Positions 10,444 through 19,331 of a stretch of 64,000 bases of DNA are shown here, one piece after another (the stretch's first letter is position 1; each line of letters starts with the position of its first letter). The notes beneath the pieces are model-generated. The model was not told where the DNA came from and made no database searches. It was given only the letters and a program-made list of their open reading frames with translations. The position numbers were made by a program, and so were the translations under genes. Source of the DNA: Candidatus Eisenbacteria bacterium (GTDB lineage Bacteria > Desulfobacterota > Binatia > DP-6); assembly GCA_035577985.1 (NCBI GenBank), contig DATJZY010000032.1, forward strand, positions 1 to 64,000, read 5' to 3'.

Positions 10444-12648
10444 TCAGGCGGGCGCGACGTCGACCGGGATGCCGTTGACGACCGCGTTGTTGCTGATCGG
10501 ATCGGTCAGGCGGCCCGGCGCCAGGAGGTTGCTGTTGATGCCGGCGTGCTCGCGCGCGACGCCCAGGCGCGTCCCCGGCTTGTCGTGTCCCCAGCCGTGC
10601 GGCAGCGAGACGACGCCCGGCATCATCTCGTCGCTCACCTCGACCGGCACCTCGACGCTGCCCGCCTCCGACGTCACGCGCGCCGGCGCACCGCTGCGCA
10701 CGCCGCAGCGAGCCGCGTCGCTCGGGTGGATGAGGAGCGTGCAGCGCTCGCGCCCGCGCACCAGCACCTCCACGTTGTGGAGCCACGAGTTGTTGGAGCG
10801 CAGGTGGCGTCGCGAGACGAGCACGAGCCCGGAGCGCGGGCGACCCAGCCGCGCCGCGAGCCGCGCCACGTCGGCCGTGATGTAGGGGGGCGCGAGCTCC
10901 ACCTTGCCCGAGGGCGTCGCGAGGATCTCGTCCAGCCGCGGCACCATCGGACCCATGTCGATCCCGTGCGGCGCGTCGCGGAACGACCGGAGCGTGAGAC
11001 CGCCGGGTCGCTCGCCGTAGCCGTCGCCGAACGGTCCCGTCCGGATCTGGAAGTCGACGAGCCGCTCGGGCCCGCGGTGATCGTAGAGCCCCAGGATCTT
11101 CGCGGGGTCGACGTTCTTCGCGGCGCACAGGGCCATGAGGAAGCCGTCGTCCATCGCCGCCGGGTCGATCTCCGAAAGCGGCATGCCGGCGCACAGGCCG
11201 CCCAGCGTGGCGAGGATCTCCCACTCCTGCGGCCGATCGGCGCACGGGAAGATCGCGGGCGAGAAGTTGCCCGCGCTGCGCACGCCCCACATGGCGATGA
11301 GGTCGTCGAAGTGCGGCTGCTCGAGCGCCGACTGCCCCGGTAGGATCACGTGCGCGTGGCGCGTCGTCTCGTTGAGCGCGTTGTCGAGGCTGATCATGCA
11401 TTCGAGCTCGGGGAGGGCGGCGTCGAGCCGCGCGGCGTCGGGCGCCGAGATCACCGGGTTGCCGGCGATCGTGACGAGCGCACGGATGCGGCCGTCGCCC
11501 GGGGTCGCGATCTCCTCGGCGAGGCACGAGAGCGGGAACTGTCCCAGCACCTCGGGCACGCCGCGCACGCGCGAGCGGAAGCGTCCGAACGAGACGCCGT
11601 CCGCCCACTGCGGATCGGGCAACGAGGTGAGGCTCCAGGCGATCGGGTTGCCGAACATGAGGCCGCCCGGCCGATCGAAGTTGCCGGTGAGGATGTTCAC
11701 GACGTCGACCAGCCACGACGCGAGCGTCCCGAACTCCTGGTTGCAGAGGCCGATCCGCCCGTAGACCGCGGACGACGGCGCGGCGGCGATCTCGTGCGCG
11801 ACGCGGCGGATGGTGGCGGCGGGCACGCGGCAGGTGGCCTCGACGCGCTCGGGCGAGAAGGGCGCCGCGAGCGCGCGCACGTCGTCGATCCCGTTCACGC
11901 GCGAGGCGAGCGCGCCCGGCCGTACGAGGCCGTCGGCGAACAGGACGTGGCACCAGGCGAGCAGCAGCGCGGCGTCGGTTCCCGGTTCGATCGGGATCCA
12001 TTCGTCGGCCTCGTCGGCGGTGCCGGTGCGGCGAGGGTCGACGACGACGGTCTTCCCGCCGCGCGCGCGGATGCGATCGATCTCGCCCAGCACGTCGGGG
12101 CAGGCGAGCAGGCTTCCCTGCGACGCCTGCGGGTTGCCGCCCATCACCACCCAATACTGCGTGCGCTGGATGTCCGGCGTCGGGATCCACCACATGCTCC
12201 CGTACATCAGCATGCACGAGACGTTCTTCGGCCACTGGTCGACGGTGCCCGCCGAGTAGAGCGTCGGGAGCTGGGAGAGCCCCATGAAGAGCCCGACGTA
12301 ACGGGAGAGGTGGATGCTGTGCGCGGTCGGATTCCCGATGTACGCGGTGATGGCCTGTTTGCCGTGCTTCGCGAGGACGCCGCCGATCAGCTCCTCGCAG
12401 CGCGCGAAGGCCTCCTTCCACCCGACCTCGCGCCAGCGCGTGCCCTCGCGAACCATCGGGACGCGGATGCGGTCGGGATCGTGGTGGAGCGCGCCGAGCG
12501 TCGTCCCCTTGGGACAGATGAACCCCTTGCTCCACACGTCGTCGTGATCGGGTCGGATGGCGACGACGCGATCGCCCTCGGTCTGCACCTCGAGACCGCA
12601 CATGGCTTCGCAGAGCGGGCACGTCCGGAAGTGGCTCGTCGGCGGCAT
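10444..12648 (-). CDS. Molybdopterin-dependent oxidoreductase (DMSO reductase family, 4Fe-4S)
   Basis: 734 residues. N-terminal 4Fe-4S ligands C10-P-L-C13-E-A-M-C17 and C45 (FICPKG) are followed by molybdopterin domains. These include a GNPTAHS element, YWVVMGGNPQASQG, VVDPRRTGTADEADEW and a C-terminal dinucleotide-binding domain (RRHLRSNNSWLHN, PHGWGHDKPGT). There is no twin-arginine leader, so a cytosolic enzyme of the formate-dehydrogenase/nitrate-reductase-like type is likely; the substrate is unassigned. I prefer the ATG at 12648 because upstream codons give a low-complexity Arg/Pro leader. No electron-transfer subunit is adjacent. The tetrahaem cytochrome gene lies upstream on the same strand, across a 239-base gap. 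Confidence 0.85.
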   Translation of the reverse strand: MPPTSHFRTCPLCEAMCGLEVQTEGDRVVAIRPDHDDVWSKGFICPKGTTLGALHHDPDRIRVPMVREGTRWREVGWKEAFARCEELIGGVLAKHGKQAITAYIGNPTAHSIHLSRYVGLFMGLSQLPTLYSAGTVDQWPKNVSCMLMYGSMWWIPTPDIQRTQYWVVMGGNPQASQGSLLACPDVLGEIDRIRARGGKTVVVDPRRTGTADEADEWIPIEPGTDAALLLAWCHVLFADGLVRPGALASRVNGIDDVRALAAPFSPERVEATCRVPAATIRRVAHEIAAAPSSAVYGRIGLCNQEFGTLASWLVDVVNILTGNFDRPGGLMFGNPIAWSLTSLPDPQWADGVSFGRFRSRVRGVPEVLGQFPLSCLAEEIATPGDGRIRALVTIAGNPVISAPDAARLDAALPELECMISLDNALNETTRHAHVILPGQSALEQPHFDDLIAMWGVRSAGNFSPAIFPCADRPQEWEILATLGGLCAGMPLSEIDPAAMDDGFLMALCAAKNVDPAKILGLYDHRGPERLVDFQIRTGPFGDGYGERPGGLTLRSFRDAPHGIDMGPMVPRLDEILATPSGKVELAPPYITADVARLAARLGRPRSGLVLVSRRHLRSNNSWLHNVEVLVRGRERCTLLIHPSDAARCGVRSGAPARVTSEAGSVEVPVEVSDEMMPGVVSLPHGWGHDKPGTRLGVAREHAGINSNLLAPGRLTDPISNNAVVNGIPVDVAPA

Positions 12649-12662
12649 GGGGACGGACGATA

Positions 12663-12840
12663 GCACGAGCGCGCGCGCAGGCGCGACGCTTTCTCGTGCG
12701 CGGCGGGCGGGCGGCGGGGTGTTCGCTCGCGGTCCTCGGGCCACGCGCGCCTCGTGGGCCGCGACGACACAGCCGCCAACCGCGGCGCGCGCCGGGCCCT
12801 GCGGGCTCGCTCACACCCCACCCCCGCCACCCGCCCGCCG
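12663..12840. repeat. Long imperfect palindrome in the oxidoreductase/cytochrome gap
   Basis: The 239-base gap holds nested inverted repeats. The outer arm 12701-12720 (CGGCGGGCGGGCGGCGGGGT) pairs imperfectly with 12815-12840 read on the other strand. Inner segments up to about 12750 and 12780 also resemble each other after inversion. A separate 7-base pair, GCACGAG (12663-12669) and CTCGTGC (12693-12699), lies at the left end. No T-tract follows, so it is not a standard terminator. No coding frame looks real here. Confidence 0.5.
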
Positions 12841-12887
12841 GGACGAGGACGCGTCGCGCGGCTCGCTCGCGCTTCACCGCCGCCTCG

Positions 12888-14864
12888 CTAGCGACGATAC
12901 GTGCCGGTGTAGCCGAAGCTGAACGCGTCGCCGTCGGGATCGCCGGGCGCCGGCGGCACGGGGTTGGGAACCTCGGAATGCGCGGGCGGGATGTGGCGGA
13001 GATACGCGATCAGCGCCTCGAGATCCTCGGGCGTGAGCCGGGAGAAGTGATCCCACGGCATCGCCTGCCAGTGCATGATGCGTCCGTCGCGGCTGATGCC
13101 GCTCGTGATCGCGCGGCGGATCTGGGCGTCGTTCCACGTGCCGAGCCCGGTCTCGCGATCGGGGGTGAGGTTGCGCGAATACGTCGTGCCGAAGACCTTC
13201 CACGCGACGCGCATGCCGCCGCCCATGTCGGGGAACGCTTGCCACAGGCGCAGGGGATCCGGTCCGGCGGTGTGGCAGAGCGAGCAGGTTCCGACGGTCG
13301 CGACGTAGCGGCCATGGTTCACCAGCACGCGCGTGTCGTCGTCGAGGTTGCCGACGGGGAAGGGCGGTGGGCGCAGCGGCGGAAGACCCAGGGCGCGCCC
13401 GAGTGCCGCGACCGGCGGCGCCGCCTTCACGAGCGCGGGCGGCATCCAGCGCAGCGGCGGCCACGTGTAGACGAGCGGCACGCCGATGAGGACGGTCCAG
13501 ACGGCGAGCGTCTCCAGGCGGCGCTGTCCCTTGCGCGTCCTCGCGTAGAGCGCGAGCGCGAACAGGCAGCCCAGCACCATCATGGTGTCGGTCGACGGAT
13601 TCACGACGGGGGCGTTCGGCTGGTCGGGCGGCGGTGTACGGCCGGCGTTGCCCGGAAAGTAGATGCCCGCGATCTGCTCGCCCGTGAGGAAGGCGCCGAG
13701 CTTCCCCACGATGCCGTCGACGAGCGACGGCGCCTCGGGTGGCGGGACGCGGTTGCGAACCGGCGGAAGCGACTGCAGGTATGCGTGGATCGCGTCGACG
13801 TCGGCGTCGCGTACGCCGGCGAGGATCGTCCACGGCATGTCGAGCGCGCTCAGAACGCGCCCGCTGCGCGAGCGTCCCTTGCGGATCGCCGCACGCAGGT
13901 CGGCATCGCTCCACCCCCCGAGGCCGGTGTCGGGATCGGGCGTCAGGTTCCGCGTGTAGACGACGCCCGAGTGCGTGATGACGACGCGCATGCCGCCGGC
14001 GCCGAAGCTGCCCGGGACGTACGCGCCGTCGGGCTGCATCTGCACGTGGCACAGGAAGCACGTGCCGGACTGTGCGAGGTATTCGCCGCGCTTCGCGGGC
14101 GGCTCGCCGGCGCCCGCTTCGGCGCGTGCGGCCTCGCGCGCGGCGGCGGCGAGCGACGGGGCGCGCGCGCGCGACAACGCCCAGTGCGAGACGTCCCAGA
14201 GCTGGGCCACCGACGCGGCGTCGAGATAGCTCGGCATCGGCGTGCCGCCGATGCCCGACGCGAGCCGCATCGTGACGTCGGCCGCCGTGGCACCGCCCTT
14301 GAACGTCCACGGCCGGGTGAGGTCGGCGGGTGCGATGCGGGTGCCGTCCGAGGCGCGAAGCTGCGCCGCCGACGCGCCGTCGCCGCGGCCGCGGTCGCCG
14401 TGGCACGCAGGGCAGCCGAGCTCCACGTACGCGACCGCGCCGCGCCGCCGGCTGTCGTCGTCGTCGGGCGGCTCGCGTCCGAGGTCGAGCGGCGTTCCCG
14501 GCGCGCGCGGCATCGTCGCGAAGCTCCGTACGACGGCGACGAGACGTGCGATCTCGTCCGCCGAGAGCAGGTCCGAGAAATACGGCATGCTCGTGCCGGG
14601 AATGCCCGAGCGGATCGTGCGCGCGAGATCCTCGTCGGTCGGCGCCGAGCCCGAGGGCACGCTCGTCAGCTTGAAGCGCCCCGTCGTGAAGTCGCGCGGC
14701 GGCGCGCCGTTGAACGCGAGCGCGACCGCGGCCGGTCCGCGGCCGTCGCCGCGCTCGCCGTGGCAGCGTGCGCACCAGTGCTGATAGAGCGCGACGTCGG
14801 CCGGTGGCGGCGCCGCGCCGGCGGCGGCCGCGAACAGGACGAGCGTCGCGATCGCTCGCGTCAC
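12888..14864 (-). CDS. Tetrahaem c-type cytochrome with internal membrane segments
   Basis: 658 residues. The Sec signal (AIATLVLFAAAAGAAPP) is followed by four CxxCH haem sites: CARCH 31-35, CPACH 151-155, CFLCH 269-273 and CSLCH 527-531. Domains 3 and 4 share the TRNLTPD / SRNLTPD plus GLGxW pattern of alcohol-dehydrogenase-type cytochrome subunits. Each has downstream Met candidates (MPW). Between haems 3 and 4, about residues 425-470, lie one or two membrane segments. This suggests three haems and the fourth are tethered to the inner membrane. The GTG start at 14864 overlaps the hydrolase stop (GTGA). It probably takes electrons from a co-encoded oxidoreductase; the partner is not proven. 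Confidence 0.85.
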   Translation of the reverse strand: MTRAIATLVLFAAAAGAAPPPADVALYQHWCARCHGERGDGRGPAAVALAFNGAPPRDFTTGRFKLTSVPSGSAPTDEDLARTIRSGIPGTSMPYFSDLLSADEIARLVAVVRSFATMPRAPGTPLDLGREPPDDDDSRRRGAVAYVELGCPACHGDRGRGDGASAAQLRASDGTRIAPADLTRPWTFKGGATAADVTMRLASGIGGTPMPSYLDAASVAQLWDVSHWALSRARAPSLAAAAREAARAEAGAGEPPAKRGEYLAQSGTCFLCHVQMQPDGAYVPGSFGAGGMRVVITHSGVVYTRNLTPDPDTGLGGWSDADLRAAIRKGRSRSGRVLSALDMPWTILAGVRDADVDAIHAYLQSLPPVRNRVPPPEAPSLVDGIVGKLGAFLTGEQIAGIYFPGNAGRTPPPDQPNAPVVNPSTDTMMVLGCLFALALYARTRKGQRRLETLAVWTVLIGVPLVYTWPPLRWMPPALVKAAPPVAALGRALGLPPLRPPPFPVGNLDDDTRVLVNHGRYVATVGTCSLCHTAGPDPLRLWQAFPDMGGGMRVAWKVFGTTYSRNLTPDRETGLGTWNDAQIRRAITSGISRDGRIMHWQAMPWDHFSRLTPEDLEALIAYLRHIPPAHSEVPNPVPPAPGDPDGDAFSFGYTGTYRR

Positions 14865-15727
14865 CGCAGAAAGTCGAGCACCAGGCGATTCACCATCTCC
14901 GGCTTCTCCTGGTGCACGAAGTGCCCGGCGCCGGCAATGACCTCGATCCGAAGGCCGCGCGGGAAGTACTCGCGCATGGACGGGACGAGCTCGGCGCCGA
15001 TGCACCCGTCGTCGGCGCCGTGCAGCATGAGGGCGGGCACCTCGAGCGGCACGCTCGTGGCGGTGAGGCTGGCCTCCATGACCGCCGGGTCGGCCAGCGC
15101 GGGGCCCATGGTGGCGCGATAGTACCCGAGCGCCGCCTCCACCGTTCCCGGGGCGCGGAAGGTCGCCTTGGTGCGCTCGCGCTCCTCGGCCGGGCACGTC
15201 CAGCCAGGGGACCAGTCGGCGACCAGGCGATCGACGAGGGCGAAGTCGTCGTGGCGGAGCGCCGCGTCCGCGATCGGCTGCTGGAAGAAGAACATGTACC
15301 AGGAGCGACGGATCTGTGCGGGGCTGGTCGTGAAGGCGCGGAACAGCGCCGGGCCGTAGGGCACGGCGGCGGTGACGATCTTGCGCAGGCGCTGCGGCGC
15401 GAGCAGCGCGGCGAAATAGGTCGCCACCGCGCCCCAGTCGTGGCCGAAGACGACCGCCTGCTCGGCATCGAGGGCGTCGAGCAGCGCGAGCACGTCCTCG
15501 GCGAGCGCCATGCCGTCGTAGCGTCCGTCGGCGGGCGCGCTCGTCGGCGCGTAGCCGCGCATGTACGGCGCGACGGTGCGGAATCCTGCCCGGGCGAGCG
15601 CGGGCATCTGATGGCGGAACGAGTGGGCCTGATCCGGGAAGCCGTGCAGGCACAGCACGAGCGGACCCGAGCCTTCCTCCAGCGCTTCGAACGCGACGTT
15701 GGGCGTGCGGATCGTGCGCGAGGTCAT
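14861..15727 (-). CDS. Epoxide-hydrolase-like alpha/beta hydrolase
   Basis: 288 residues, cytosolic. The sequence has the epoxide hydrolase / haloalkane dehalogenase arrangement. HGFPDQAHSF gives the oxyanion side. FGHDWGAVAT has the nucleophile Asp in the elbow. Lid Tyr candidates are in SWYMFFFQQP, an acid candidate in LMLHGADDGCI, and the catalytic His in GAGHFVHQEKPE. The reaction is therefore probably hydrolysis of an epoxide or alkyl halide, with specificity unknown. It is coupled on both sides: its ATG overlaps the upstream 4Fe-4S/SCP2 stop (ATGA at 15724-15727) and its stop overlaps the cytochrome start. Confidence 0.85.
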   Translation of the reverse strand: MTSRTIRTPNVAFEALEEGSGPLVLCLHGFPDQAHSFRHQMPALARAGFRTVAPYMRGYAPTSAPADGRYDGMALAEDVLALLDALDAEQAVVFGHDWGAVATYFAALLAPQRLRKIVTAAVPYGPALFRAFTTSPAQIRRSWYMFFFQQPIADAALRHDDFALVDRLVADWSPGWTCPAEERERTKATFRAPGTVEAALGYYRATMGPALADPAVMEASLTATSVPLEVPALMLHGADDGCIGAELVPSMREYFPRGLRIEVIAGAGHFVHQEKPEMVNRLVLDFLR

Positions 15728-17280
15728 GCCCGCCTTTCAGCACGCCGCAGCAACCGACGCACGCGCCAGGCGAGCCGATGTGCCCACGACCGTCCCGGCT
15801 CGTGGCCGAAGAGCGCCGGGAACTTGAGGAAGAGACGGCGGTCGCCGGACAGGCGAAGGCGGCCGGTCACGAGCCCCAGCACCGGGTTCACGTCGCCGCG
15901 ATGCACGGCGAGCCAGTAGGTCGCCCTGGTGCGGATCGTCAAATCGGCGCGCCCGGCGCGCCCGGGCCGCACCTCGCAGCGCTCGTCGGCGACGCGCATC
16001 ACCCAGGGACCGCCGCCGGGTCCGGTGAGATCGAGCTGCACGGTGAACGCGAGACCCGCCGCTTCGCTCGGCCGGAAGTACTGCGGCATCCAGCGCATCA
16101 TCGCTTCGACGTTCTGCGTGCGGATGCGCCGCAGGTTGACCAGCCGGACGCCCCTCCACGACTCGCCCGCGCGGTCGATCGGCGTTCGCCACTCGCCCGG
16201 TGGGATGTCGTACCTCGCGCGCGCCGACGGCGTGTCGAGCACGAACTGCGCATCCTCGACGCCGCGCGTGTGCGTGAGCGGCTTCAGCGTCTCGTCGAGG
16301 TACTCGCGCCGCACCCGGCGATCGCCCTGGAATGCGTCCTCGATCTCCGCCGGGCAGGTGGCGACGCAGTTGAAGCAGCGATACTCGACCTTGAACGCCA
16401 TGGCCTGCCAGAGCGCCGCGATCTCGTTGTCGGCCCAGCGCTTGCGGAAGTCCTTCGTCGAGCGCTCGGCGAGGTCGCCCACCAAGTCGAGGAAGCCGGG
16501 GATCGAGTCGCGGTAGGTGTGGTTGTAGCAGGCGAAGAAGTCGAACGTGCCGTCGGAGCGGATGGCGTCGGTCGGACACGAGGCGACGCACAGGTTGCAG
16601 GTGAGGCACGGGTTCCAGGTCGTCGGCTGATCGTATGTGGGCCACTCGAGGTTCGTGACCACGGTGTCGATCAGGCAGTAGGCGCCGAACTTCCGGTGCA
16701 GGAAGTTCCGGCTGGTGCCGATGACGCCGAGGCCGGCCGCCTGCGCGACGAGCTTGTGCGAGAGCGGCCAGATCTTGTCGGCCCACCGCTGGCTTACCTC
16801 CTGCGGCCATCCGATGGTCGTCGTGAGACCCGCGCCGCCGAGGCTCTGGATGTACTTCACGGTGCGATGGCCCATCGCGAAGAGGCGCTCCTCGCACGAG
16901 TAGAGCTCGTGGTTCGCGGTCGGCAGGTAGCGCGACTGCATGGCGGCCTTGTTCTCCTCGCCGATCATGCAGACGAGCGAGCGCGCGTGCGGGTAGACGT
17001 AGAGGATCTCGTCGCGCTCGTGTGCGATCGCCGGGTCGTCGATCGAGACGATGCCGACGTCGTCGCACCAGGTGGCCATCTCGCGCTTGAAGTCCGCGAG
17101 CGGGACGGGTGCGGGGACGCCGCGATTCGGCACGGGGCTCGGGTCGAGCGCACGGTACGGCCAGCGCCAGGCCGTCGGTGGCGGCACGCCGCCCGGCTCG
17201 ATCGGACGCGGCCTCCCGGGGGCCGGGAAGGGGAACCCCCAGTCGCTCGCGGTGGTGAACGCCGTCAACTTCGGTGCCAT
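15724..17280 (-). CDS. QueG/RdhA-like 4Fe-4S protein fused to an SCP2 lipid-binding domain
   Basis: 518 residues. Residues ~60-210 resemble the N-terminal half of epoxyqueuosine reductase and reductive dehalogenases (AAGLGVIGTSRNFL, FGAYCLIDTVVTNLE). A double 4Fe-4S module follows: C225, C228, C231, C235 with CPTDAI, then C302, C305, C309 with CP, and a spare Cys at 251. Residues ~395-490 look like an SCP2 sterol/lipid carrier domain (FTVQLDLTGPGG, RADLTIRTRATYWLAVHRGD, GRLRLSGDRRLFLKFPALF). I infer a redox enzyme that receives a hydrophobic substrate through the SCP2 domain. Cobalamin use is possible but not shown. TAGGAG precedes the ATG at 17280. It is the second gene of the TetR-headed operon. 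Confidence 0.75.
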   Translation of the reverse strand: MAPKLTAFTTASDWGFPFPAPGRPRPIEPGGVPPPTAWRWPYRALDPSPVPNRGVPAPVPLADFKREMATWCDDVGIVSIDDPAIAHERDEILYVYPHARSLVCMIGEENKAAMQSRYLPTANHELYSCEERLFAMGHRTVKYIQSLGGAGLTTTIGWPQEVSQRWADKIWPLSHKLVAQAAGLGVIGTSRNFLHRKFGAYCLIDTVVTNLEWPTYDQPTTWNPCLTCNLCVASCPTDAIRSDGTFDFFACYNHTYRDSIPGFLDLVGDLAERSTKDFRKRWADNEIAALWQAMAFKVEYRCFNCVATCPAEIEDAFQGDRRVRREYLDETLKPLTHTRGVEDAQFVLDTPSARARYDIPPGEWRTPIDRAGESWRGVRLVNLRRIRTQNVEAMMRWMPQYFRPSEAAGLAFTVQLDLTGPGGGPWVMRVADERCEVRPGRAGRADLTIRTRATYWLAVHRGDVNPVLGLVTGRLRLSGDRRLFLKFPALFGHEPGRSWAHRLAWRVRRLLRRAERRA

Positions 17281-17289
17281 ACGACACTC

Positions 17290-17904
17290 CTATGGTCGGA
17301 GGGGCACGAGGGCGCCTTCGAGGACCGCTTCGAGCACCTCGGCGTCGTGGCCCGCGGCCGTCGCCAGCAGCAGGCCCGACACCGCGAGCGCCGTCACGCC
17401 GTGTACCTGGGCCCACAGCGCGTTGGCGACGACGGTCGCGTCGCCGGGACGCAGCTCCCCCGCCTGCATGCCGGCCTGGACGGCGTCGCGCACGACGAGG
17501 AGGGTCTGCATCTCGCGCTGCACCGCCTCGCGTCCCGGCATGTCGGACGGGCGCAGGCTGAACATGAGGACATAGTACGAAGGGTTGTCCTTACCGAACC
17601 GGAAGTAGGCCCGGCCCATGGCGCGCAGGCGCTCGATCGCATCCCGACCGGTCACCGCGCGCAGCGAGCTCGACAGACGCGCGTGTCCCTCCATACGGAG
17701 GTGCTCGAGCAGATCACCGACGCTACGGTAGTAGAGGTAGATCGCGGTCGGGCTGCAGCCGACCTCGCGCGCCAGGCGGCGCGCCGAAACGCCCTCGGCG
17801 CCGTGGGCCAGGTAGAGCCGTCGCGCGGCCTTCAGCAATGCCGCGCGAATGGGCTGCGGCCCTCGCCGCGGGCGGCGTGCGAGAGCCTCCTTCGTGGTTG
17901 ACAC
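17290..17904 (-). CDS. TetR family transcriptional regulator
   Basis: 204 residues. The TetR DNA-binding domain is at residues ~18-65 (AALLKAARRLYLAHGAEGVS, SARRLAREVGCSPTAIYLYY). A ligand-binding C-terminus of the WHG / TetR_C_13 type follows (MQTLLVVRDAVQAGMQAGEL ... ANALWAQVHGVTAL). It lies nine bases before the QueG-SCP2 gene on the same strand and probably controls that operon, itself and perhaps the divergent DUF1329 gene. The only plausible start is a GTG at 17902-17904 with no Shine-Dalgarno sequence, inside the candidate operator. Repression would then block translation-proximal DNA directly. Confidence 0.85.
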   Translation of the reverse strand: MSTTKEALARRPRRGPQPIRAALLKAARRLYLAHGAEGVSARRLAREVGCSPTAIYLYYRSVGDLLEHLRMEGHARLSSSLRAVTGRDAIERLRAMGRAYFRFGKDNPSYYVLMFSLRPSDMPGREAVQREMQTLLVVRDAVQAGMQAGELRPGDATVVANALWAQVHGVTALAVSGLLLATAAGHDAEVLEAVLEGALVPLRP

Positions 17905-17915
17905 TGTTCATGTCA
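17899..17915. promoter_or_regulatory. Candidate TetR operator in the TetR/DUF1329 divergent gap
   Basis: TGACA-N7-TGTCA is a perfect 5-base inverted repeat typical in size and spacing of TetR operators. It overlaps the GTG start of the regulator and a TTGACA hexamer (17898-17903) on the plus strand pointing at DUF1329. No good -10 box is seen 16-18 bases further on, so promoter use is uncertain. Confidence 0.5.
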
Positions 17916-18003
17916 GTAACCGATCGATCCCCCTGCGGCAATGCCCTCCCCAGCGTCCCACAAGGGTGCTATGGGAGATAGCTCCACAGGAGGGGGACAT
18001 CTC

Positions 18004-19266
18004 ATGAGTGACCGCCGCTTCATCGTGACCTGCGCCGCGGCCCTGGCGATCTGTCTGCGCGCGCTCGTCGCGACCGCCGACGTATCGCCGGGCGACAAGA
18101 TCAACGACTCCAACGTCGACAAGGCGAAGGACCTGATCTCGCCCGGGCTCGAGTGGTGCATCAAGCACGGCCTGCCGATCACCGTCGTCGAGACCAAGAA
18201 GGTCGAATGGCCGCGCGCCTACAAGGAGGCGACCGAGAAGTACGCAGGCCAGGTGAAGCTCACCCCGGACGGGATGAACGTACAGAACTACGTCGCTGGC
18301 CAACCGTTTCCGGCCCTCGACCCGAAGGACCCGCAATTCGCCATCAAGGTCATGTGGAACTACGAGTACGGGTTCGTGAACGGGATCGACGACACGGATC
18401 TCCGGAACTTCGACGCCGACACGGGGTCGATCCCCGCGAAGGGCCCGATGACGGTCGAGCGCCACTTCCTGCTCGACCATCTGCGCCGACTCTTCTGGAC
18501 GGGACGGCTCTACGTCGAGCCCAAGCCGTCGAAACCGAACCCGAACGGCTACCGCGCGCAGCAGGGCCTGTACCCGATCCTCGAGCCCTTCGACCTGAAG
18601 GGCGTCGGTGCGCTCGGCAACCGGTACACCGATTCCGCGAAGCAGGACGATTCGTGGCTCTACCTCCCGTCGCTCCGCCGCGTGCGTCGCCTCTCGACCG
18701 CGCAGCGCTCGGACGCCCTCTTCGGGCAGGACACCGACGTCGACAGCTACTACGGCTACGCCGGTCACATCTCGTGGATGGAGTGGAAGTTCCTCGGAGA
18801 GAAGGAGGTCCTGGGCGCCGTCCACGCACAGCACTTCCCGGTCAAGTGGGACGACAAGGTCGACTGGGCCTTCGACGACGTGTGGGAGAAGCGCAAGGTG
18901 TACGTGATCGAAGGAATCTCGAAGCTCCCACAGTACGCCTACTCCAAGCGCGTCCTCTACATCGACAAGGAGTATTGGGGCATCCCGTTCTCCGACATCT
19001 ACGATCGCTCGGGCGAGCTCTGGAAGATCTGGATCAACGACCTGAGCTTCCGGAAGTCGGTGCCTGGCGGAATCGTCTACGAGGACGAGATGCCGTTCGC
19101 GCCGGCGATCGACATGGTCGACATGCAGCTCGAGCACGCCACCAAGGCGTCGCTGCCGAGCCCGCGCTTCCCCGGCGAGCAGGGCTGGTACTACCACCAG
19201 GGCGAGAAGGCCGGCATCACCGACGACTGGTTCACGGTCGCGGCGCTCGTCGGCGCGGGACACTAG
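18004..19266 (+). CDS. DUF1329 periplasmic/outer-membrane protein
   Basis: 420 residues with a Sec signal (FIVTCAAALAICLRAL, ending ATADV). The mature part is a DUF1329 protein. Family features seen include a Tyr/Trp-rich body, DDSWLYLPSLRRVRRLS, KVYVIEGIS and LYIDKEYWGIPFSDIYDR. This resembles the LolA/LolB-type half-barrel outer-membrane lipoprotein-sorting fold. In other bacteria DUF1329 genes often accompany DUF1302 proteins and RND/MMPL transporters near hydrophobic-compound catabolism genes. None of those partners is adjacent here. AGGAGG at 17988-17993 precedes the ATG at 18004, which I prefer to an upstream in-frame ATG at 17941 that spoils the signal peptide. A strong terminator follows. 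Confidence 0.85.
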   Translation: MSDRRFIVTCAAALAICLRALVATADVSPGDKINDSNVDKAKDLISPGLEWCIKHGLPITVVETKKVEWPRAYKEATEKYAGQVKLTPDGMNVQNYVAGQPFPALDPKDPQFAIKVMWNYEYGFVNGIDDTDLRNFDADTGSIPAKGPMTVERHFLLDHLRRLFWTGRLYVEPKPSKPNPNGYRAQQGLYPILEPFDLKGVGALGNRYTDSAKQDDSWLYLPSLRRVRRLSTAQRSDALFGQDTDVDSYYGYAGHISWMEWKFLGEKEVLGAVHAQHFPVKWDDKVDWAFDDVWEKRKVYVIEGISKLPQYAYSKRVLYIDKEYWGIPFSDIYDRSGELWKIWINDLSFRKSVPGGIVYEDEMPFAPAIDMVDMQLEHATKASLPSPRFPGEQGWYYHQGEKAGITDDWFTVAALVGAGH

Positions 19267-19290
19267 TTCCGAGGATCTTCGCACGATGAG

Positions 19291-19331
19291 ATCGGGGCGT
19301 GGCGCCTGCGCGCCGCGCCCCGATTGTTTTT
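19291..19331 (+). terminator. Rho-independent terminator after DUF1329
   Basis: A 15-base stem (19291-19305 with 19310-19324, one G-T wobble) closes a 4-base loop and is followed by TGTTTTT. It sits 25 bases after the DUF1329 stop, insulating it from the glycosyltransferase. It also rules out a TTG start at 19324 for that next gene. Confidence 0.85.

Follow-up and report, generated by a model that had tools for sequence, protein, structure and literature searches.

What does a gene cluster centered on a TetR-family regulator and a lipid-binding redox enzyme do in Candidatus Eisenbacteria bacterium: does it encode a multistep pathway for a hydrophobic compound, or something smaller? We addressed this question in a 64,000-nucleotide stretch of contig DATJZY010000032.1 (G000:C32:1-64000, hereafter the window), taken from a 5.7-Mb draft genome. 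The minus strand carries, in order, genes for TetR, a protein that we call QueG-SCP2, an alpha/beta hydrolase, a cytochrome, and a molybdopterin oxidoreductase; a DUF1329 gene is divergent on the plus strand. TetR and QueG-SCP2 are spaced by nine bases, 4-base overlaps join QueG-SCP2 to the hydrolase gene and the hydrolase gene to the cytochrome gene, and a gap of ~239 nt precedes the molybdopterin gene. These coordinates confirm the gene order, strands, couplings, and nine-base spacing described in a first-pass annotation of this DNA, which had joined all six genes into a catabolic locus. Our comparison points instead to a two-gene unit, which we read, with a probability of about 0.6, as an inducible one-enzyme module: a TetR-controlled, membrane-associated reductase of a hydrophobic electrophile.

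We compared the neighborhoods of close QueG-SCP2 relatives, which we found, its own genome included, in 14 of the 148 class genomes (61–77% identity for the full-length proteins). A scan of a public genome collection gave eight loci, all labeled as Deltaproteobacteria metagenome-assembled genomes. With five contigs common to the two sets, matched by their equal lengths (28441, 77174, 6628, 80590, and 17048 bases), and L016 treated as a second fragment of G002, 16 distinct loci were available (the window, G001, G002, G003, G005, G009, G012, G018, G035, G037, G041, G048, G054, G112, L011, and L014). TetR is adjacent to or clustered with QueG-SCP2 in 15 of these, so a TetR-centered locus is borne out. 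The window-type (type-1) TetR is present in nine (the window, G001, G002 as a fragment, G003, G005, G018, G035, G037, and G112); in G035 the cytochrome gene sits between TetR and QueG-SCP2, and in G037 TetR is divergent. A different, type-2 TetR lies directly downstream of QueG-SCP2 in six (G009, G012, G041, G048, G054, and L011). The annotation had offered co-occurrence in relatives as a check on its proposal. The TetR/QueG-SCP2 pair passes this check, while the hydrolase and cytochrome (2/16 each), DUF1329 (6/16), and the molybdopterin oxidoreductase (1/16) do not. Because each of these four accompanies QueG-SCP2 in only a minority of loci, a multienzyme catabolic pathway is not supported as a conserved unit; judged from sequence comparison, that unit appears to be the regulator plus one enzyme, with the other grouped genes mostly local neighbors. 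Contigs L011, G041, G037, G002, and G003 stop within a few kb of QueG-SCP2, so low neighbor counts are lower bounds, and neighbor genes were called by simple scripts, so their starts are approximate.

Two copies of the pair look damaged. In G002 (L048, G002:C163, 11107-12049, and G002:C406), TetR residues 20–57 are fused into QueG-SCP2 residue 253 onward, with more of the gene on another contig; this join is either a deletion or a misassembly. In L058 (G037:C225), a frame change near residue 248 splits QueG-SCP2, reflecting a pseudogene or an assembly error.

QueG-SCP2 (15724-17280, minus strand, 518 amino acids) combines a core of the QueG/reductive dehalogenase type, with the ligands for two [4Fe-4S] clusters, an SCP2 domain at residues ~386-496, and a basic amphipathic C-terminal helix. 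The SCP2 domain scores 43.4 bits with PF02036 (cutoff 21.3), in keeping with the earlier description of a redox enzyme carrying a lipid-type domain. The core falls below the cutoffs of both related families, at 53.8 bits for QueG (TIGR00276, cutoff 200; 47–60 bits for five other family members) and 30.4 bits for RdhA (TIGR02486, cutoff 160), the latter similarity extending over residues 96-311. The cluster cysteines C225, C228, C231, C235, C251, C302, C305, and C309 are invariant in all 14 proteins of sub-family I, to which the window protein belongs, and in all five core-only proteins that lack SCP2. The QueG structure paper gives the cluster ligands there as residues 184, 187, 190, and 243 and residues 194, 210, 236, and 239 (PMC4646009). 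Compared with these, the order, the within-motif spacing, and the fourth-to-fifth spacing are equal (16 residues between C235 and C251, as between QueG C194 and C210), and the stretch ahead of the last three cysteines is longer in QueG-SCP2. By sequence, then, the protein carries the two-cluster ligand pattern of the class III corrinoid/[4Fe-4S] enzymes.

The predicted structure likewise has the corrinoid-binding domain fold of this class. A first model (mean predicted local distance difference test, pLDDT, of 61.7), built from an alignment without QueG rows, was weak and has been superseded; Foldseek matched it to SCP2, to reductive dehalogenases 8q4h and 4ur3, and to QueG 5d0a. With a second model, VIA aligned residues 58-314 with QueG 5d6s (Z 12.8 over 210 residues), residues 21-333 with PceA 4ur3 (Z 12.3 over 221 residues), NpRdhA (Z 10.7 over 225 residues), and residues 388-496 with SCP2 domains (Z ~14). 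Hydropathy analysis gave no signal or membrane segment in QueG-SCP2, and a basic amphipathic C-terminus is present in 13 of 13 proteins.

These features set QueG-SCP2 beside, yet apart from, its known relatives. With QueG (5d6s, 5d08) it shares the eight-cysteine arrangement, the GLGxIG loop, and the fold over residues 56-314, whereas its C-terminus is SCP2 in place of the HEAT-repeat tRNA-binding domain and it lacks an unambiguous counterpart of the catalytic Asp. Opposite that Asp stands an invariant Lys169 in one alignment and a gap in another, and we claim no counterpart; the catalytic Tyr of QueG was not placed in the QueG-SCP2 alignments. The genome encodes a separate QueG (L108, C126), so QueG-SCP2 is not the queuosine enzyme. 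With RdhA (PceA 4ur3, NpRdhA 6zxu) it shares the core fold and the two clusters; unlike RdhA, it has no detected N-terminal export segment, is fused to SCP2, and stands under local TetR control. The SCP2 fold itself is common to the human MFE-2 SCP2 domain, AF1534, UbiJ, and the C-terminal domains of the alkylsulfatases SdsA1 and Pisa1, in none of which entries is it fused to an Fe–S reductase. Among the papers listed by full-text searches, which covered neither subscription papers nor preprints, we found no description of a fusion of QueG or a reductive dehalogenase to SCP2.

How is this enzyme controlled? TetR (17290-17904, minus strand, GTG start at 17904) passes the Pfam cutoffs for TetR_N (37.0 bits) and the C-terminal domain TetR_C_33 (56.8 bits). 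Its best six homologues among 58 relatives (48–63% identity) adjoin QueG-SCP2, at a distance of one gene in G035, and homologues beyond these drop to 33–38% identity. Upstream of TetR in all nine type-1 loci lies the 15-mer GTTAACRGTGTTAAC, with 0–3 mismatches and with TTGAC (TTGCC in the window) ~25-30 nt further upstream; the window version, operator O1, is ATGAACAGTGTCAAC (17897-17911, minus strand). In leave-one-out matrices, each of the nine sites outscores all 1000 dinucleotide shuffles, and column agreement is 0.87 within the site against 0.52 and 0.48 in the flanks (chance, 0.46). Promoter-like hexamers, TTGCCG (17936-17941) and TACTGA (17913-17918), flank a 17-nt spacer in the window; a consensus sigma-70 scan of the window called no promoter, these hexamers included, so they are assigned by comparison only. 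The central GTG of O1 serves as the TetR start codon, at 17904 in the window and likewise at the starts called in L049 and L050, so that bound repressor would cover the promoter end and the start codon. No known RNA, riboswitches included, was found in the window at the gathering threshold.

The first-pass annotation had placed the TetR site at 17899-17915. The exact palindrome there, TGACA-N7-TGTCA, exists in the window and in none of the 15 relatives' loci, and we rejected it as the operator; the region itself holds, as the conserved 15-mer overlaps it. From this conservation, TetR very probably acts around 17899-17915. The enzyme gene carries a second, operator-like site, O2 (GTTGACGGCGTTCAC, 17255-17269, minus strand), in its first codons. 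A matrix built from O1 sites alone detects O2 (0/1000 shuffles), and it finds sites at the QueG-SCP2 start in five of eight type-1 loci: the window, L047, L050, and L051 (0/1000 each), and L058 (1/1000).

Genome-wide searches at ≤2 mismatches returned two places in G001, both at the TetR/QueG-SCP2 locus, and one place each in G003 and G005, also at the locus. One of two places in G002, one of eight in G035, and one of five in G112 lie at the locus, the last two being the sole perfect matches in their genomes; reversed-pattern controls also match there (4 in G035, 8 in G112). These distributions suggest that the predicted repressor is local and nearly single-target. A wider regulon was considered and rejected, the scan of the window's own genome at ≤3 mismatches being at control level, and seven loci read at the extra sites in G112, G035, G018, and G002 revealed no common function.

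The type-2 loci have an operator of their own. The palindrome AATTGAGTNNNACTCAATT stands directly before QueG-SCP2 in all six, each site outscoring all 1000 shuffles in leave-one-out tests, with a column agreement of 0.85 inside the operator; across both operator types, flanks agree at 0.48-0.53 (chance, 0.46-0.50). At ≤3 mismatches, it occurs at 1–2 places per genome in the five genomes searched (G009, G012, G041, G048, and G054). In all five the QueG-SCP2 promoter is the top-ranking place, although in G009 a second place equals it at 3 mismatches. This operator falls between DUF1329 and QueG-SCP2, so the two are probably separate transcripts there. A third TetR-operator pair is found in Bacillota, on Priestia plasmids, where TetR lies directly upstream of the QueG-SCP2 homologue and near-identical palindromes precede the two genes (AGACCGAACGGTCT before TetR and AGACCGTTCGGTCT before the homologue in L129). 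Because distinct TetR types with distinct operators stand at the same enzyme, different repressors have been recruited to it.

The wider family shows the same association in looser form. A sister sub-family II (~410-450 amino acids, 30-35% identity) occurs in G035, Nostoc, the Priestia plasmids, and six other genomes of the phylum, which is probably Binatota. Its members in Nostoc sp. C052 and on the Priestia megaterium plasmids, named "SCP2 sterol-binding domain-containing protein", share the two-part architecture at 30-32% identity and, for Priestia, the adjoining TetR; unlike the window protein, they have one cluster cysteine replaced, end at SCP2, and bear no assigned function. A TetR gene lies within one gene in 6 of 10 sub-family II loci (both Priestia plasmids, L151, L152, L155, and L156) and a MarR gene in one (L154); no regulator was recognized at three (Nostoc, and L059 and L153 on short contigs). 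SCP2-less core proteins also exist, with 35 of 395 genomes matching the profile at E ≤ 1e-30, short partial matches included; the five loci read have TetR (one), MarR one gene away (two), HxlR (one), or no recognized regulator (one). A tree separates nine QueG rows from 28 rows of the SCP2/core family with 100/100 support, although the tree is unrooted and one QueG row was flagged for a long branch. Sub-family I forms one clade in it. The SCP2-less proteins occupy two positions, and one of these is nested within SCP2-bearing proteins; loss or gain of SCP2 has thus occurred more than once.

We propose that TetR would bind O1, which overlaps the TetR start codon immediately after the promoter, together with O2 at the start of QueG-SCP2, and that occupancy of both sites would shut off both genes until a hydrophobic inducer frees the repressor from DNA. 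QueG-SCP2 would then act as a cytoplasmic, membrane-peripheral reductase in which the SCP2 domain and basic C-terminal helix bring a lipid-like substrate from the membrane to the core. Electrons would pass through the two [4Fe-4S] clusters to a corrinoid, and a leaving group, an epoxide oxygen or a halide, would be reductively removed. Detoxification is at least as likely a role as catabolism, because some relatives have efflux-pump neighbors, and we regard removal of a toxic hydrophobic electrophile as somewhat likelier than growth on it. Efflux genes lie near the G018, G342, and G469 loci, the first having a CecR-type regulator, an outer-membrane efflux protein, and an ABC ATPase after QueG-SCP2. 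Resistance-nodulation-division pump genes lie downstream in L151 and L152, and an old-yellow-enzyme gene lies near L158.

The remaining window genes vary in their attachment to this pair. The hydrolase gene (14861-15727, minus strand) accompanies QueG-SCP2 in the window and G001 (64% identity). In the Protein Data Bank its product comes closest to epoxide hydrolases (5ng7, E = 2e-42); EphA, EphB, and sEH are also related, and this kinship together with the Asp nucleophile motif GHDWG marks the product as a predicted epoxide hydrolase. The tetrahaem c-type cytochrome gene (12888-14864, minus strand), which encodes four CxxCH motifs, a signal peptide, and an internal hydrophobic segment, recurs near QueG-SCP2 as a 50% homologue in G035; a third full-length homologue is found in G032, a genome with no detected QueG-SCP2 orthologue. 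Only the cytochrome appears to be exported, which makes its direct coupling to the reductase unlikely. Both genes are optional, window-level additions to the operon and probably accessory.

DUF1329 (plus strand, open reading frame 17941-19266, likelier start 18004; Pfam, 184 bits) shares its intergenic region with TetR and is a lineage-variable partner, adjoining QueG-SCP2 in the window, G002, G005, G009, G048, and G054. It is also a multicopy gene, matched at E ≤ 1e-80 in 36 of 58 genomes with up to 12 copies. The first-pass annotation took it for a putative outer-membrane uptake protein; the published description is of a periplasmic LolA-like protein (PMC6394551), and growth on monoterpenes and on Tween 20 depends on DUF1329 proteins (PMC6394551, PMC10866462). 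AmeB and PP_0766 belong to the same family, and no DUF1302 partner was recognized beside the window gene. A strong terminator-like hairpin with a T tail follows it (19290-19325, plus strand), so DUF1329 is probably transcribed alone. A second copy, 76% identical, lies at a contig end (G000:C176:81540-82850).

The molybdopterin oxidoreductase (10444-12648, minus strand) had been counted in the gene set. We judged it to lie outside the module, given the ~239-nt gap and orthologues unlinked to QueG-SCP2: its best orthologues (75, 67, 66, and 64%; range 63-75%) are in genomes without QueG-SCP2 or, in G012, on another contig, and QueG-SCP2 is absent from the three orthologue neighborhoods read. Speaking against this exclusion, two of five loci with an SCP2-less homologue (L158 and L159) have a distant molybdopterin enzyme (~24% identity) nearby. 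The family (L073, L074, and L075) reaches four copies per genome in the class and has no fixed partner in three neighborhoods.

Several observations weigh against an inducible, corrinoid-dependent module. No computational tool showed corrinoid binding by QueG-SCP2, hhalign aligned only the Fe–S half with QueG, and the second structure model has moderate confidence (pLDDT 68.7) and was built from an alignment that contained QueG rows. Seven of nine sub-family II proteins (L059, L128, L129, and four of L151-L156) have Ala or Ser at the position of C302, so not every family member has the complete cluster pattern; the replacement suggests a changed or missing proximal-cluster ligand. No TetR was found near QueG-SCP2 in L014. 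O1 and O2 have 3 mismatches each, among the weakest of the type-1 series, and at that threshold the window's own genome holds 16 places, two of them here, against 15 for the control. O2 lies within coding sequence, and the O1-matrix scan found no second site at the enzyme start in L049, L057, and L071. At ≤2 mismatches, none of three places in G018 is at the locus and G037 has no type-1 site genome-wide. Finally, acyl-CoA dehydrogenase genes near QueG-SCP2 in L052, L054, L055, and L014 and a crotonase-like gene directly after it in G035 (L013/L057) fit catabolism as well as detoxification.

These last neighbors belong to the case for an unlikely alternative, multistep catabolism of a hydrophobic compound in which DUF1329 would serve uptake, QueG-SCP2 reduction, the hydrolase epoxide opening, and the cytochrome and molybdopterin enzyme an electron sink. 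The 4-base overlaps, the recurrence of the cytochrome in the G035 cluster and of the hydrolase in G001, the six loci with adjacent DUF1329, and the growth requirement for DUF1329 proteins all fit such a pathway. It must contend, however, with the unlinked molybdopterin gene, the absence of hydrolase and cytochrome from most loci, the type-2 operator that probably splits DUF1329 from the enzyme into two transcripts, and the different predicted locations of cytochrome and reductase. The acyl-CoA enzymes would also suit a non-corrinoid, UbiJ-like electron carrier or scaffold that binds lipid and serves membrane lipid or quinone metabolism, as would UbiJ itself among the SCP2 matches and the cysteine often missing in sub-family II. 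We hold this to be improbable: the match to QueG and the reductive dehalogenases spans both the ferredoxin part and the corrinoid domain, the dehalogenase profile covers residues 96-311, and dedicated local repressors would be unusual for a housekeeping carrier. Very improbable is a TetR that regulates only itself and adjoins QueG-SCP2 through inherited synteny. The three type-1 loci without a site at the enzyme start would be so explained, but not the presence, beside the same enzyme, of two TetR types that have different operators and of a third type in Bacillota, nor the type-2 operators directly before the enzyme gene.

The authors of the QueG structure noted that more B12/[4Fe-4S]-dependent families may exist without a recognizable corrinoid motif (PMC4646009). 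We tentatively suggest, at somewhat less than even odds, that QueG-SCP2 and its relatives form a third class III B12/[4Fe-4S] reductase family beside QueG and the reductive dehalogenases, acting on membrane-delivered, lipid-like electrophiles (organohalides or lipid epoxides), with exchangeable repressors of the TetR or MarR type mediating induction by the substrate. QueG-SCP2 is a concrete candidate for such a family: its clade is well delimited, its cluster pattern is intact, and a lipid domain replaces the tRNA domain. Its dedicated operators would permit inducer screening with a simple reporter. The answer would tell whether B12 reductive chemistry reaches lipids or hydrophobic pollutants, both in bacteria of soil and groundwater that have seldom been cultured and in Priestia megaterium, which is in culture.

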